In this document: piece by piece, positions 8,870 through 27,591 of the stretch
Numbering within the stretch: the first letter of the stretch is position 1
Layout: each line of letters opens with the position of its first letter
Assembly: GCA_021831785.1 (NCBI GenBank)
Contig: JAKBMB010000007.1
Location: 186,001 to 250,000 of the forward strand
DNA length: 64,000 nt
Reading direction: 5' to 3'
From: Deltaproteobacteria bacterium
Lineage (GTDB): Bacteria > Desulfobacterota > Binatia > Binatales > Binataceae
Translations under genes and position numbers: made by a program
The notes under the pieces: model-generated
Told to the model about the DNA's origin: nothing
What the model saw: only the letters and a program-made list of their open reading frames with translations
Database searches by the model: none

Positions 8870-8944
<75 letters not shown>

Positions 8945-10089: not shown

Positions 10090-12717
10090 CTAGTCCTGGG
10101 GATACGCGCTGCGATAGCGCCCGCGCAGCTCCTGCTCGACGGCAGAGGCTTCGTCTTCGGTCTTGTAGGGACCGACTTTGACCAGCCAGCGAGCCTCGTC
10201 CTCGCCGGTCGAAACGAGATAGACATTGTATCCCAGCGCCTTAAGCCGCGAGGCTATCTTGTCGGCGTCGGGGCGGTCCATCGCATCTTCGATCTGGATG
10301 CTGTATCCCTTGTGGCGAGCTCTTTTTGAAGCGAGAGAAGCGAGGCCGGAGTCCTCGGCTTCTGCGTCAGGCTTTGCACCGGCAGCCATCTGTTTTTTCG
10401 CTTGCGCAGCGCGCTTGGCGGCTTGTTGCGCTCGCTTCTTGGCCTGCTCGGCCTGCTGCGCCGCGAGCTGTCGCTGCTGTTCCTGCTCGGCGGCCGCGGC
10501 TGCCGCCTCTCTCTGGCGCTCTTGTTCCAAGCGCGCGGCCTGTTCAGCCTGCTGCCGCTTGACCTGCTCCTGTTGCTGGCGCTGCGTCTCGGCAGCCTGC
10601 TTCTTGGCCCGCTCGGCCTGCTGCGCCGCGAGCTGCCGCTGCTGTTCCTGCTCGGCGGCCGCGGCTGCCGCCTCTCTCTGGCGCTCTTGTTCCAGGCGCG
10701 CGGCCTGTTCAGCCTGTTGCCGCTTGGCCCGCTCCTGTTGCTGCGGTTCGGCCGCGGCGGCCTTCGGCGCCCGTTGTTGTTTTAGTTTTTCAGCCTCGGC
10801 GCGCTTTTGAGCTTCAGCCCTTTGGGCCTCCAGGAGGTTATCCTGCTCCAGTTTTTCGAGAGCAACGGTTCGACGTTCTAGCGCCTGTTCGTAACGGAAC
10901 GCGCCATAACCGATGGCCGCCACTACGAGTGCCCCAGCAGCGATCAGCGCTGGCCTAAGCGGAAACGCCGCGCCGGAGCGCTCCGGCTTGACGATCGCTT
11001 GCTTCGGCAATTCCACTTCTGCGGTGGAAGCCGGCGCGGGATGCAAGGGCAGGGTAGCGTGGGGGCAAGTCGGCGCATGACCGGGCAATTCCTCCCCACA
11101 AGTTGCGCAGGCCTTATCGCTCTGGTTCCAAAGCGCTCGATAGAGCTTATGCAGACCCGAGAGGCCCTTGAGCGCTACTTCGCGACCCTCATCGAATCGC
11201 ACGTCGCCGGCCGGCGCAACGACCTCTTTGAAGATAGAGGAGAGCAGAATTTCGCCGCCTTCGGCCTGGCTGCCGACGCGCGCCGCCATAATCACCGCGG
11301 TGCCGAAGAAGTCTTCCGACTCATTGATAGCTTCGCCGACGTGCAAGCCGATTCGCACGCGCAGCGGCTGCTGCGGATGCTCGTCGCTGTAGACCGCGAA
11401 GGCGCGTTGAATCGCCATGGCGCATTGCAGCGCGCGGCGCGCGCTCGAAAATACGACCATGAACCCGTCGCCCATCGATTTCACTTCGCGCCCGCGGTGC
11501 GCGGCGATCTGTTCACGAATGATTGAATTATGGGCCCGCAGCAGCTCTTGCGCCCGCAGATCGCCCAGCCGGTCGTACATCCTGGTTGAGTTCTCGATAT
11601 CCGAGAATAGGATGCTCACGGTGCCGTCGCGGGAGGCGTGCATGCTCAGATTGGGCCGCTCGATCGCGACCGACTTTGCTAGTTGATCAATTCCGCTGCC
11701 CAGGTTGTCGGCGATGGTTTTAAGTTGCGCGTGGACCACGCTGGCGCTTGCCGGCCGGTCTTCGGGCTTTTTCGCCAGGAGGTTAAGTACCAGCGTATCC
11801 AGCGCTTTGGGCACCTCCGGCCGTTCGCGCGAAGGCGGCTCAACCGTCGCGTTGAGATGCTGCGAAAGCGCGCTGAGCAGATCCTGTCCCTTAAAGGGCG
11901 GATGCCCGGTCAGCATCTCGAACAGCATGGCGCCGAGCGAATAGAGATCGCTGCGCGGTTCGGGAGGCGTTCCTTGCACCTGTTCGGGCGAAATGTAAGC
12001 CACCGTTCCGACCATCACGCCCGTTGCAGTAAGCCGCGACAAGTCTCGGGCGAGGGCCAGTCCAAAGTCCCCCAGCTTGCCCCTTCCTTCCCGTGTAAGC
12101 CAAACATTGGCGGGCTTTATGTCGCGATGAACGACCCCGTGAGCATGCGCATGTTCCAGCGCTTGACACACCTCGCCGGCGATTCGGATCGCGTCCGCAA
12201 CCGGCAGGTACTGATGCGGCGAGCGTTCCAGAAGGTTCTCGACCGACCCTCCGGCCATGTACTGACTTACGATGTAGGGCTGACCTTGCTCCTCGCCGAC
12301 ATCATAGACGTTGACGATATGCGGATGGTCGCCGAGACGGCCCATCGCGCGCGCCTCGCGATTGATGCGCTCGCGCCCGGCTTCGTCCAAACCGTGGGTC
12401 CGTATTAGCGCGAACGCAACCTCGCGGTCGAGATTGACGTCGCGCGCGAGATATACGGTTTTGCTGCCGCCTTCACCCAGCAGGCGGATAATCCGATAGC
12501 GCCCGCCGACGAACGATTCAGGCATCTTTGGCTTGGCGCCAGGAGCGCTGGCTGAAGCCGGCGGACTGCCGAGTGATACGCCGCACGACCCGCAGAAGCG
12601 CGCGCTCGGTTGGTTATGGAATCCGCAAGACTGACAGTCCGAATTCAGAAGCGCGCCGCAGTCGGAACAAAACTTCCGGTCTTCGGTGTTGTTTTGACCG
12701 CAAGCTGGGCAGGTCAT
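10090..12717 (-). CDS. Membrane receptor: zinc ribbons, WNK-like Ser/Thr kinase, class III nucleotide cyclase, TM, coiled coil, SPOR
   Basis: 875 residues. Order: two CxxC zinc ribbons (1-48); protein kinase (about 73-335) with catalytic loop HRDIKPAN (Asp200) and DFG (217-219); class III cyclase (about 365-530) with metal aspartates Asp373 (FSDIENS) and Asp417 (MGDGF) and Lys413; a further CxxC/C pair (537-551); one membrane segment (about 588-606); a Gln/Ala/Glu/Arg-rich coiled coil (615-775) with a 55-residue duplication; a SPOR domain (about 804-872). The VAIK lysine is Ala103; instead Lys86 sits in the glycine loop (GEGGSKTVYLA), as in WNK kinases. The usual transition-state Asn of the cyclase is Ile476. 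Predicted topology: kinase and cyclase cytoplasmic, SPOR periplasmic and able to bind stripped septal glycan. Monocistronic; AT-rich DNA upstream. The domain calls are firm, signalling output is inference. Confidence 0.85.
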   Translation of the reverse strand: MTCPACGQNNTEDRKFCSDCGALLNSDCQSCGFHNQPSARFCGSCGVSLGSPPASASAPGAKPKMPESFVGGRYRIIRLLGEGGSKTVYLARDVNLDREVAFALIRTHGLDEAGRERINREARAMGRLGDHPHIVNVYDVGEEQGQPYIVSQYMAGGSVENLLERSPHQYLPVADAIRIAGEVCQALEHAHAHGVVHRDIKPANVWLTREGRGKLGDFGLALARDLSRLTATGVMVGTVAYISPEQVQGTPPEPRSDLYSLGAMLFEMLTGHPPFKGQDLLSALSQHLNATVEPPSRERPEVPKALDTLVLNLLAKKPEDRPASASVVHAQLKTIADNLGSGIDQLAKSVAIERPNLSMHASRDGTVSILFSDIENSTRMYDRLGDLRAQELLRAHNSIIREQIAAHRGREVKSMGDGFMVVFSSARRALQCAMAIQRAFAVYSDEHPQQPLRVRIGLHVGEAINESEDFFGTAVIMAARVGSQAEGGEILLSSIFKEVVAPAGDVRFDEGREVALKGLSGLHKLYRALWNQSDKACATCGEELPGHAPTCPHATLPLHPAPASTAEVELPKQAIVKPERSGAAFPLRPALIAAGALVVAAIGYGAFRYEQALERRTVALEKLEQDNLLEAQRAEAQKRAEAEKLKQQRAPKAAAAEPQQQERAKRQQAEQAARLEQERQREAAAAAAEQEQQRQLAAQQAERAKKQAAETQRQQQEQVKRQQAEQAARLEQERQREAAAAAAEQEQQRQLAAQQAEQAKKRAQQAAKRAAQAKKQMAAGAKPDAEAEDSGLASLASKRARHKGYSIQIEDAMDRPDADKIASRLKALGYNVYLVSTGEDEARWLVKVGPYKTEDEASAVEQELRGRYRSAYPQD
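10441..10770 (-). repeat. 165-bp in-frame tandem duplication in coiled-coil region
   Basis: Two copies of about 165 bp (10441-10605 and 10606-10770; most conserved over the first about 138 bp) encode nearly identical 55-residue blocks beginning KRQQAEQAARLEQERQ. Only a few base differences are seen in the best-matching part, so the duplication is recent or homogenised. It lengthens the periplasmic coiled coil of the kinase-cyclase without shifting frame. Confidence 0.85.
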
Positions 12718-13210: not shown

Positions 13211-13774
13211 GTGGTTCGTGCCGACACCGAGAGAAAACCGGATGCCAAGTTGGTAGCCGCGATGGCCAATGGTGACGCTCACGCACTGAAGGCGCTTAAC
13301 GCGCGCTACGGTGCGTCGCTGTCAGCGCTAGCCTTCCGCTTCCTCGCCGATCAGGCCGACGCCGAAGAGGTGGTCGCGGACGTGCTCTGGCAGGCCTGGC
13401 GCGAAGCCGCTCTTTACGACCCGGCGCGCGGCTCGGTGGCAGCATGGCTGGTCGCCATGTCGCGCAGCCGCGCAATCGACCGGTTCAGGGCGATTCGGGC
13501 GCGCCGCCTTGCGCCGGGCATAGGCGAGCCCAACCCTGAAGCAACGCCGGACCCGGCTGATGAGCTCGACAGCGCCGAGCGCGGAAGAATCGTAAAGCAC
13601 GCGCTGGAGACGCTTGACCCTAAGCAGCGCGAGCTGTTGGAGCTGGCGTACTTTTCGGACCTGTCGCAGACCGAGATCGCGGCGCGGCTCGCTCTGCCGC
13701 TGGGCACGGTCAAGACCAGGATGCGCGCCGCGCTGCTCAAGCTGCGCCAGATGCTGAGCGGTTTGCCGGAGTAA
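13211..13774 (+). CDS. ECF RNA polymerase sigma factor (SigK-like)
   Basis: 187 residues with the two conserved sigma regions of extracytoplasmic function factors: region 2 (ALAFRFLADQADAEEVVADV, then LYDPARGSVAAWLVAMSRSRAIDR) and region 4 (LDPKQRELLELAYFSDLSQT, then LPLGTVKTRMRAAL helix-turn-helix). The linker is short and lacks extra domains. The frame starts at GTG 13211 with GGGGAT upstream; no in-frame ATG is nearby. The RskA-type anti-sigma gene starts 2 bp after the stop, the SigK/RskA arrangement. It is likely held inactive at the membrane and released by envelope stress. Confidence 0.92.
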   Translation: MVRADTERKPDAKLVAAMANGDAHALKALNARYGASLSALAFRFLADQADAEEVVADVLWQAWREAALYDPARGSVAAWLVAMSRSRAIDRFRAIRARRLAPGIGEPNPEATPDPADELDSAERGRIVKHALETLDPKQRELLELAYFSDLSQTEIAARLALPLGTVKTRMRAALLKLRQMLSGLPE

Positions 13775-13776
13775 CG

Positions 13777-14730
13777 ATGGACCACGCTGAGCTCGAGGAT
13801 TTGCTTGCGCTTGCCGCCCTCGGACGCCTTGATGCGCCCGATGAAGCGGCGCTCGAGGCCCATCTGCGCGAAGGCTGCGCCCAATGCGAGGCGGAACTTA
13901 GAGCGCTCAGAGAGGCGGCTGCGGCGCTGGCGCTCTCGCTTGAGCCGGCGCCAGCCGAACAACGCCTCTGGCTTAAGCTTAAGGCGCGGCTGGACCAAAG
14001 CCTACCGCAAGCTTCACCAGCCGGACGGTTTAGCGCCCCAGAAGTGGGGGAGCGCCAGGCGCAAAGCGCGGAGCGGCCAACGGCCCCGCGCGCGAGCCGA
14101 CCGGCTGGCCACGAGCGTTACGACGCGGCACTGCGCCGAACACCGCGCGTATGGCCGTGGCGAGTAGCCACCGGGATGGCAGCGGCGGCGGCGCTGGTGC
14201 TCGCGTTTTTTGCCGGCGGGGCCGCGCGCGAGTTCGGGCGTATCGACCGGCAGCGCCGGCTGCGTATCGCGCAGTTGGAAAAGCAGGCGCTAAGCCTGTC
14301 TAGCGAACGCTCAGCGGCGCGGACTCAAGCCGTGCGTCTGGAGCAGGCGCTCAACCGGCGCGCGCGGCTGCAGAGCGTCCTGATGGCCTCCGACGCGCAC
14401 ATGATGCATCTTAAGCCGCTCGGCCCCGCCCCTGGCGCGCGCGCGTTGGTTGCGATGAGCGCGACCAGGCGCAGCGCCGTCATCCAGGCCGCAGGTCTAC
14501 CGCCTACGCCCGCGGGCAAGGCTTATGAAATGTGGTGGATCACTAAACAGCACGGGCCTGTGCCGGCAGGGATTTTTCACGCCGAAACCGGGCGCGAAGT
14601 GATTGCCTCGATCGATCCGCCGCCCTCGGGCGAACGCTTGCTGATGGCCGCGGTGACGCTGGAGCCCGCTGCCGGCGTGGCCAAGCCCACCGGTCGGATG
14701 TACCTCAAGGCGCCGATCCCCGCCAACTAG
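13777..14730 (+). CDS. RskA-family membrane anti-sigma factor
   Basis: Partner of the preceding sigma factor, 2 bp upstream. The cytoplasmic N-terminus carries a zinc anti-sigma signature (His29, Cys34, Cys37 in EAHLREGCAQCEAEL), followed by a linker, one membrane helix (about 129-148, WRVATGMAAAAALVLAFF) and an extracytoplasmic RskA domain (about 190-317) with KAYEMWWITKQHGPVPAG. In the family the membrane protein sequesters the sigma factor and is degraded on signal. Length (317) is within family range. 78 bp after its stop begins IS debris, so any third gene of the operon has been lost or never existed. Confidence 0.9.
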   Translation: MDHAELEDLLALAALGRLDAPDEAALEAHLREGCAQCEAELRALREAAAALALSLEPAPAEQRLWLKLKARLDQSLPQASPAGRFSAPEVGERQAQSAERPTAPRASRPAGHERYDAALRRTPRVWPWRVATGMAAAAALVLAFFAGGAAREFGRIDRQRRLRIAQLEKQALSLSSERSAARTQAVRLEQALNRRARLQSVLMASDAHMMHLKPLGPAPGARALVAMSATRRSAVIQAAGLPPTPAGKAYEMWWITKQHGPVPAGIFHAETGREVIASIDPPPSGERLLMAAVTLEPAAGVAKPTGRMYLKAPIPAN

Positions 14731-14807: not shown

Positions 14808-15272
14808 TTGGCCGCGCTCAGCAAAGCGGACGGCGAGTCTCGCCGCAGACCCGGCTTTTACCGCCCACGCCTCGCCGAATGCGAGGCTGCCAAGTCGCGC
14901 TTCGAGACCGAATTTCAGGCCAAGTATCCCAAGGCGGTCGAATCGTTGACCACCCACTGGGAACGCCTGGTTACGTTCTTCGACTTTCCGGCCGAACACT
15001 GGAAGCATCTGCGCACCACCAACGTGATCGAGTCACCCTGCGCCACCGTGCGGCTGCGCGAGCGGGCAACCAGGGGCGCAGGATCGAGAACCAAGGGGCT
15101 GCTGATGGCGTTCAAGCTGCTCGACATGACCCAGCAGCGCTGGCGGCGTCTGGATGGCGTTCACCTGTTGCCGCTGGTCCGCGCCGGCGTGAAGTTCGTC
15201 GATGGAGTTCGCCGCGGCGAAGCCCCAGGCCTCGCCCCTGCGAGCCAGCATCAACCAAGGGAGGCCGCCTGA
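14808..15272 (+). pseudogene. IS256-family transposase, C-terminal fragment
   Basis: The ORF carries the IS256/Mutator C-terminal pattern: YPKAVESLTTHWERLVTFFDF, PAEHWKHLRTTNVIES and the TRGAGSRTKGLLMAFKLLD stretch. Transposase homology starts only about 20 residues into the ORF, and the catalytic core is missing, so it is 5'-truncated. A TTTGACAATAACTCC string just beyond it (about 15296-15310) resembles the ends often seen in this family and may be the right terminus. Confidence 0.82.
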
Positions 15273-27519: not shown

Positions 27520-27591
27520 CGCCCCGGCCGGGAGTCGAACCCGAACTTGAGGCTCCGGAGGCCTCCGTGATGTCCTTTTCACTACCGGGGC
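27520..27591 (-). tRNA. tRNA-Arg (anticodon CCG)
   Basis: On the minus strand the acceptor arm GCCCCGG (27591-27585) pairs with CCGGGGC (27527-27521), with discriminator G at 27520 and no encoded CCA. D-stem GTGA/TCAC, anticodon stem GAGGC/GCCTC with loop CTCCGGA (anticodon CCG), and T-arm loop TTCGACT fit a normal tRNA. An integrase pseudogene begins about 190 bp past its 3' end. I could not find a duplicated 3' end (attachment site) elsewhere in the window. Confidence 0.93.

Follow-up and report, generated by a model that had tools for sequence, protein, structure and literature searches.

The 64,000-nucleotide stretch analysed here, referred to as the window, covers positions 186,001 to 250,000 of contig JAKBMB010000007.1 of a Deltaproteobacteria bacterium of the family Binataceae (assembly GCA_021831785.1). 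At window positions 10090-12717 it carries an open reading frame (ORF) on the minus strand, running from an ATG at 12717 to a stop codon ending at 10090, that encodes an 875-residue protein in which a protein kinase is joined to a class III nucleotidyl cyclase and a SPOR domain. The lysine expected in strand beta3 of the kinase is missing and another lysine stands at the start of strand beta2. The strand was added in this analysis; the preliminary description of this DNA gave none. The features of the gene are as follows.

10090..12717, minus strand: whole gene, 875 amino acids (aa); double zinc ribbon (DZR), kinase, class III cyclase, transmembrane segment (TM), linker and SPOR, in that order
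12580..12711, minus strand: double zinc ribbon, residues 3-46 (Pfam DZR, 43.3 bits)
11728..12498, minus strand: protein kinase domain with a PknB-like predicted fold, residues 74-330 (Pfam Pkinase, 171.6 bits; AlphaFold2 (AF2) model)
12460..12462, minus strand: Lys86, the relocated lysine, which starts beta2 in the model and corresponds to PKA-55 / WNK1-K233
12409..12411, minus strand: Ala103, replacing the beta3 VAIK lysine (alignments)
11164..11637, minus strand: class III nucleotidyl cyclase, residues 361-518 (Pfam Guanylate_cyc, 74.0 bits; Ma1120, 4wp3, E 1.2e-43)
11056..11109, minus strand: possible third zinc ribbon, residues 537-554, CxxC..CxH (sequence reading; no Pfam match there)
10897..10953, minus strand: single transmembrane segment, residues about 589-607 (hydropathy)
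10318..10884, minus strand: linker rich in Ala, Gln, Glu and Arg, about residues 612-800, including a 165-bp tandem duplication
10111..10311, minus strand: SPOR domain, residues 803-869 (Pfam, 35.7 bits; AF2 model), diverged at glycan-contact positions

The DZR, Pkinase, Guanylate_cyc and SPOR scores each lie above the Pfam cut-off and, together with hydropathy, they bear out the preliminary description in placing zinc ribbons, kinase, class III cyclase, one TM and SPOR on a single chain. The coiled coil that it also named appears instead to be the low-complexity Ala/Gln/Glu/Arg linker, part of which is a tandem duplication at 10434-10743 (165-bp unit, 1.9 copies, 95% match).

The kinase domain matches StkP (E 4.9e-59) and PknB (E 4.9e-52) by sequence. 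Its structure, predicted with AF2 without ATP (mean predicted local distance difference test (pLDDT) score 87.8), has the PknB fold, with a Z of 33 to PknB/Stk1 in VIA-align. In this model Lys86 (model residue 26) opens beta2 and Ala103 (model residue 43) lies within beta3, so that the beta3 (VAIK) lysine of Hanks-type kinases is absent. Lys86 lies within LGEGGSKTVYLA, in the motif GGSKTVYLA, where most canonical relatives carry LGxGGMGxVYxA-like loops; it takes the place of a small residue of the glycine loop. The alignment to PknB is gapless and in the same register, and counting along the glycine loop puts Lys86 at PKA position 55. This position is the one held by the WNK lysine (K233 in WNK1), with no lysine at position 72, in the available part of Kannan et al. 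(PMC1821047).

The clade sharing this arrangement was aligned as 32 members, 30 of them distinct (L001 repeats the window protein and L239 repeats L023). All 30 carry Lys86 and none has a lysine at position 103, which is Ala in 23 and Ser in 7; the preliminary description had read Lys86 and Ala103 in this way, and that reading is confirmed. The alphaC glutamate (Glu121), HRD, Lys201, Asn204 and DFG are likewise retained in 30/30. When 87 kinases chosen by hand from the loci were aligned, 42 proved to be swapped (position 103: 36 Ala, 5 Ser, 1 Val) and 45 canonical; each carries exactly one of the two lysines, and none has both or neither. A first pairwise table had seemed to show neither lysine at 17 loci, mostly planctomycete (L025, L028, L031, L032, L035, L040, L041, L042, L044, L046, L053, L063, L065, L066, L074, L084 and L103). 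This double loss was an artefact, because a one-residue gap had shifted the pairwise alignment; after realignment all 17 show a VALK/VAIK-type lysine.

The Lys86-swap clade is rare yet widespread. It is present in several bacterial phyla, with carriers in at least 4 of 395 genomes of the host phylum, where swap members scored 419-501 bits and the next match 257.7, in at least 3 of 301 genomes around a Dehalococcoidia genome and in at least 10 of 396 around an Actinomycetota genome. The three surveys scored the best 6-8 candidates per genome and the counts are lower bounds; lysine state was read in matches assigned a locus. One member, L018, is split between two frames of 218 and 698 aa, most likely by a frameshift or sequencing error. 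Within the same kinase family, proteins of 338-369 aa (L093-L099, L101, L103-L111) have a degraded glycine loop, mostly ARSGMASIFKA-like, and those aligned with care (L093, L094, L103) retain the beta3 lysine.

Catalysis through the relocated Lys86, as first proposed, is the best reading of these residues, because the swap is fixed in a multi-phylum clade in which all other catalytic positions examined are intact. The usual rule on loss of the beta3 lysine, as stated in the available part of PMC12599244, would nevertheless label the protein a pseudokinase, and in all four members that carry SPOR the kinase adjoins the cyclase, as expected if an ATP-binding but non-phosphorylating kinase domain gated the cyclase in the manner of animal receptor guanylyl cyclases. 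We consider this unlikely, given that HRD, DFG, the alphaC glutamate and the catalytic-loop lysine and asparagine are invariant and that the lysine is replaced, not lost, in every one of the 30 distinct members. In receptor guanylyl cyclases the catalytic aspartate is absent from the kinase-homology domain, which also counts against such a role here.

The preliminary description called the kinase WNK-like. The term is used here for a convergent mechanism and makes no claim of family membership. WNK kinases carry DLG in place of DFG, and DFG is found throughout the clade. The top matches listed are bacterial (PknB, StkP, PknA, Stk1); eukaryotic kinases of other kinds come next, and no WNK is among the matches listed; the kinase tree contained no WNK sequence. 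The residue left in beta3 also differs, being Ala or Ser here and Cys in WNK kinases in the accessible part of PMC12599244. Judged by sequence, the kinase has probably converged on the WNK solution without belonging to the WNK family.

A second swap was found in the genome of the window at locus L003 (G000:C2:19314-20090, minus strand; 516 aa), which reads GGGGMKLVY and CALAEM, a lysine having been gained in the loop and the beta3 lysine being gone. Relatives of L003 occur in 39 of the 40 host-family genomes (best match per genome 68-100% identical), and all 30 L003-family loci that were read carry the swap. Three of its paralogues from that genome (L002, L004 and L005; 46-52% identical) have the canonical lysine. 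A further 20 related kinases divide into 9 swapped and 11 canonical. In a tree built without the trait columns, the two swap groups stand apart with canonical kinases in between; a tree constrained to unite them is worse by 115 log-likelihood units and is rejected by the approximately unbiased (AU) test (p-AU 1.4e-5). Three trait changes in all are counted on this tree, which is a quick tree and includes long branches such as L072 and L227. The tree points to a swap in the second clade that arose independently of that in the Lys86 clade; more than one gain or loss of the swap is possible inside the second group. L227 itself (G008:C44), a relative of the second family, combines a lysine in its unusual glycine loop, LEGGSGKWVY, with Val at the beta3 position.

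Overall similarity to PknB would also suit a conventional receptor kinase of the PknB type whose swap is neutral or compensated elsewhere, a phylogenetic mark without function. The same pair of changes at two independent origins and the absence of any kinase with both or neither lysine among the 87 speak against this, and we regard it as very improbable.

The closest solved structure to the cyclase domain by sequence is Ma1120. The metal-binding aspartates D373 and D417 are present, and the ATP-specifying pair K413/D469 is in register with the substrate pair K101/D157 reported for Ma1120 (PMC4215837, available part). The two cyclases also share the transition-state arginine without its asparagine, the asparagine position being Ile here and Ala in Ma1120; unlike Ma1120, the domain in the window shares its chain with a kinase and a membrane anchor. 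According to the same part of that source, Ma1120 is an active adenylyl cyclase without the asparagine, and inserting one cuts its activity drastically. The product is likely to be cAMP, because the metal-binding and ATP-type residues are kept and Ma1120 is likewise active without the asparagine. One protein with a cyclic nucleotide monophosphate (cNMP)-binding domain (L249) was found in the genome and is a possible cAMP reader; it adjoins frames that resemble, by eye, hydrogenase-type subunits.

The identical domain order occurs in three other genomes, in proteins 80, 46 and 48% identical to that of the window; the Pfam domain scan covered two of these three. The recurrence of this layout, and of the Lys86 pattern in 30/30 clade members, goes well past what chance would give. 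SPOR proteins are present in 40/40 genomes of the host family, and SPOR on this kinase in four (G000, G030, G018, G019), which span 2 of its 17 genera. The four SPOR-kinases form one group in the kinase tree (Shimodaira-Hasegawa-like approximate likelihood ratio test (SH-aLRT) 94). The Ala/Gln/Glu/Arg linker is confined to the two members of the window genus, the linkers of the other genus's two members being rich in Pro, Ser and Ala.

All four SPOR domains score above the Pfam cut-off (35.7 bits against 21 for that of the window). The best structural match of the SPOR model in VIA-align is the RlpA SPOR domain 6i05 (Z 8.7, 67 residues, 2.1 Å), and Foldseek placed the CwlC and RlpA SPOR domains first at an E of about 0.02 (best 0.017). 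As the preliminary description claimed, the C-terminal region is predicted to fold as SPOR, which is present in 4/4 members, and it has this fold in common with the SPOR domains of RlpA, FtsN and DedD. A profile of the four kinase SPORs matches, at E 2e-30 to 1.4e-14, 22 small SPOR proteins resident in the family, which are open frames of 205-346 aa; the six that were read each have one hydrophobic segment near the N-terminus. This suggests that the kinase SPOR was borrowed from the resident small SPOR proteins, because it groups with them by sequence. The conserved small SPOR protein L154 (relatives L162, L169 and L157; start near MRFEI, a single hydrophobic segment close to the N-terminus) is a likely donor.

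The kinase SPORs belong to the same subfamily as these residents and differ from them in losing Arg and Trp at positions among the glycan-contact residues named as key for RlpA and FtsN in the available part of PMC6895207. At the position of RlpA R309 / FtsN R285 the kinase SPORs have L, L, A and A, and the residents Arg (21/22) or Lys (1/22). At that of FtsN W283 (RlpA L307) they have R, R, R and Q, and all 22 residents Trp. At that of RlpA Q270 / FtsN Q251 the two proteins of the window genus keep Gln (Gln808 here) and the two of the other genus have Glu, with Gln in 19/22 residents, while at that of RlpA R311 all four have Lys or Arg. The Gln-plus-Arg signature of a SPOR that binds denuded glycan is therefore incomplete, with Gln in 2/4 and Arg in 0/4.

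These residues bear directly on the earlier proposal that the protein converts the state of the division-site cell wall into signals, in which SPOR would bind denuded glycan at the septum and switch on kinase and cyclase there. The SPOR score, the RlpA fold and the retained Gln808 in both members of the window genus agree with such a sensor, but the contact Arg and Trp are lost in 4/4 members and Gln is replaced by Glu in the other two. Amidase_3 (PF01520) was found in neither genome of the window genus (G000, G030), other amidase classes not having been searched, whereas 37 of the family's 38 remaining genomes searched gave a match, including both of the other kinase-SPOR genus. Amidase_3 is a usual source of denuded glycan. 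Assembly gaps could explain its absence, yet both genomes of the genus agree. The signal may still come from the wall, but we do not favour denuded septal glycan as its source, because the contact residues are changed and Amidase_3 was not found in the genus, and we hold a septal wall sensor to be improbable. Since it has diverged at the glycan-contact residues, the SPOR domain probably reads a changed ligand or partner.

Among known systems, the PknB/StkP receptor kinases share the kinase fold and lineage, and they have a single-pass layout with an outer wall-type domain, as predicted here. The window protein differs from them in having beta3 Ala with beta2 Lys86, in its added zinc ribbons and cyclase, and in SPOR replacing PASTA. 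Animal receptor guanylyl cyclases likewise hold an outer domain, one TM, a kinase-type domain and a cyclase on one chain; here the order is reversed, the families are separate, the kinase residues are intact and the cyclase is of the ATP type. Kinase-AAA-cyclase giants of Chloroflexota and Actinomycetota belong to the same swap clade and have a related cyclase, but it lies far C-terminal after AAA (in one also TPR), and they carry no SPOR (L012 and L034 were Pfam-scanned). The TOMM_kin_cyc model (TIGR03903) gave 148.1 bits, below the NCBIfam cut-off of 705.75, and is a distant example of a kinase-cyclase protein. Kinase-cyclase fusions and SPOR proteins are each already known; judging by its title, a 2009 paper deals with such fusions. 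Other outer wall-type domains on kinases, YARHG and PASTA, are also on record (PMC3355149, available part). No report of a WNK-placed lysine in bacterial kinases or of a kinase-SPOR fusion was found in open-licence PubMed Central.

Divergent from the kinase gene, on the plus strand at 13211-14730, lie an extracytoplasmic function (ECF) sigma factor gene and then an RskA-type anti-sigma gene. A fragment of a Mutator-family transposase lies nearby (14808-15269, plus strand), and Rfam marks two tRNA genes in the window (8870-8941, plus; 27520-27591, minus). Scans for promoters and terminators yielded no signal that clearly exceeded shuffled sequence. Comparison of window positions 1-24000 with the loci L009/L088, L010 or L090 (ORFs of at least 90 aa, E 1e-6) found no shared neighbour; in both L010 and L090 a glutathione S-transferase (GST)-domain gene adjoins the kinase gene, without a functional lead. 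No plasmid match to the kinase protein was found at E 1e-60. Phage records matching it number 25, and the five matches listed cover the kinase part alone at 38-40% identity. An anti-phage role was considered and rejected: PADLOC returned 35 families led by PD-T4-6 (290 bits), the 25 matches listed all fall inside residues 56-384, that is, the kinase part, and the result reads as generic kinase similarity. Pfam identified no defence gene among 7 window ORFs and 10 neighbour genes of relatives, 6 of the latter being without any Pfam family.

On balance we lean towards a bitopic inner-membrane receptor with two outputs, combining a Lys86-active kinase, an adenylyl cyclase and a diverged SPOR domain, as sequence and models suggest. 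The domains, the swap and its conservation, the catalytic residues and the fold and divergence of SPOR are established at the level of sequence and model. Several points weigh against this reading. The window and its congener have no neighbour gene in common, and the linker sequence differs between the two genera. Net charge is weakly positive on either side of the TM, the topology being a hydropathy call. The transition-state pair of the cyclase is incomplete (I476 replaces Asn, R480 is retained). The SPOR model (pLDDT 71.9) is beta-alpha-beta-beta-alpha without the final strand, and Foldseek gave it no match at E ≤0.001.

For this dual-output receptor we infer the topology, both activities, gating by dimerization and the existence of a ligand. 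The serine/threonine kinase of PknB lineage would grip ATP through Lys86 from beta2, in the manner of WNK kinases. Beside it, an adenylyl cyclase like Ma1120 would be active in dimeric form, which is the rule for class III cyclases. The chain would cross the membrane once and hold its SPOR domain in the periplasm on a flexible stalk. Binding of a changed periplasmic ligand or partner to SPOR, or clustering driven by SPOR, may bring two chains together; the paired chains would then phosphorylate each other with Lys86-assisted ATP binding, and the paired cyclase domains would produce cAMP.

Through the fusion, a single bacterial receptor chain would have phosphorylation and cAMP as its two likely outputs. 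Two bacterial clades place a lysine at the WNK site, and this convergent lysine is the point of interest. Standard rules would mislabel the kinases of the Lys86 clade, because every other catalytic residue checked is retained in it. We put forward only tentatively the wider picture in which bacteria reached the WNK solution at least twice and in which this protein is a working kinase and adenylyl cyclase receptor with a re-purposed SPOR domain, its emptied beta3 site perhaps serving, like that of WNK, as a regulatory pocket.

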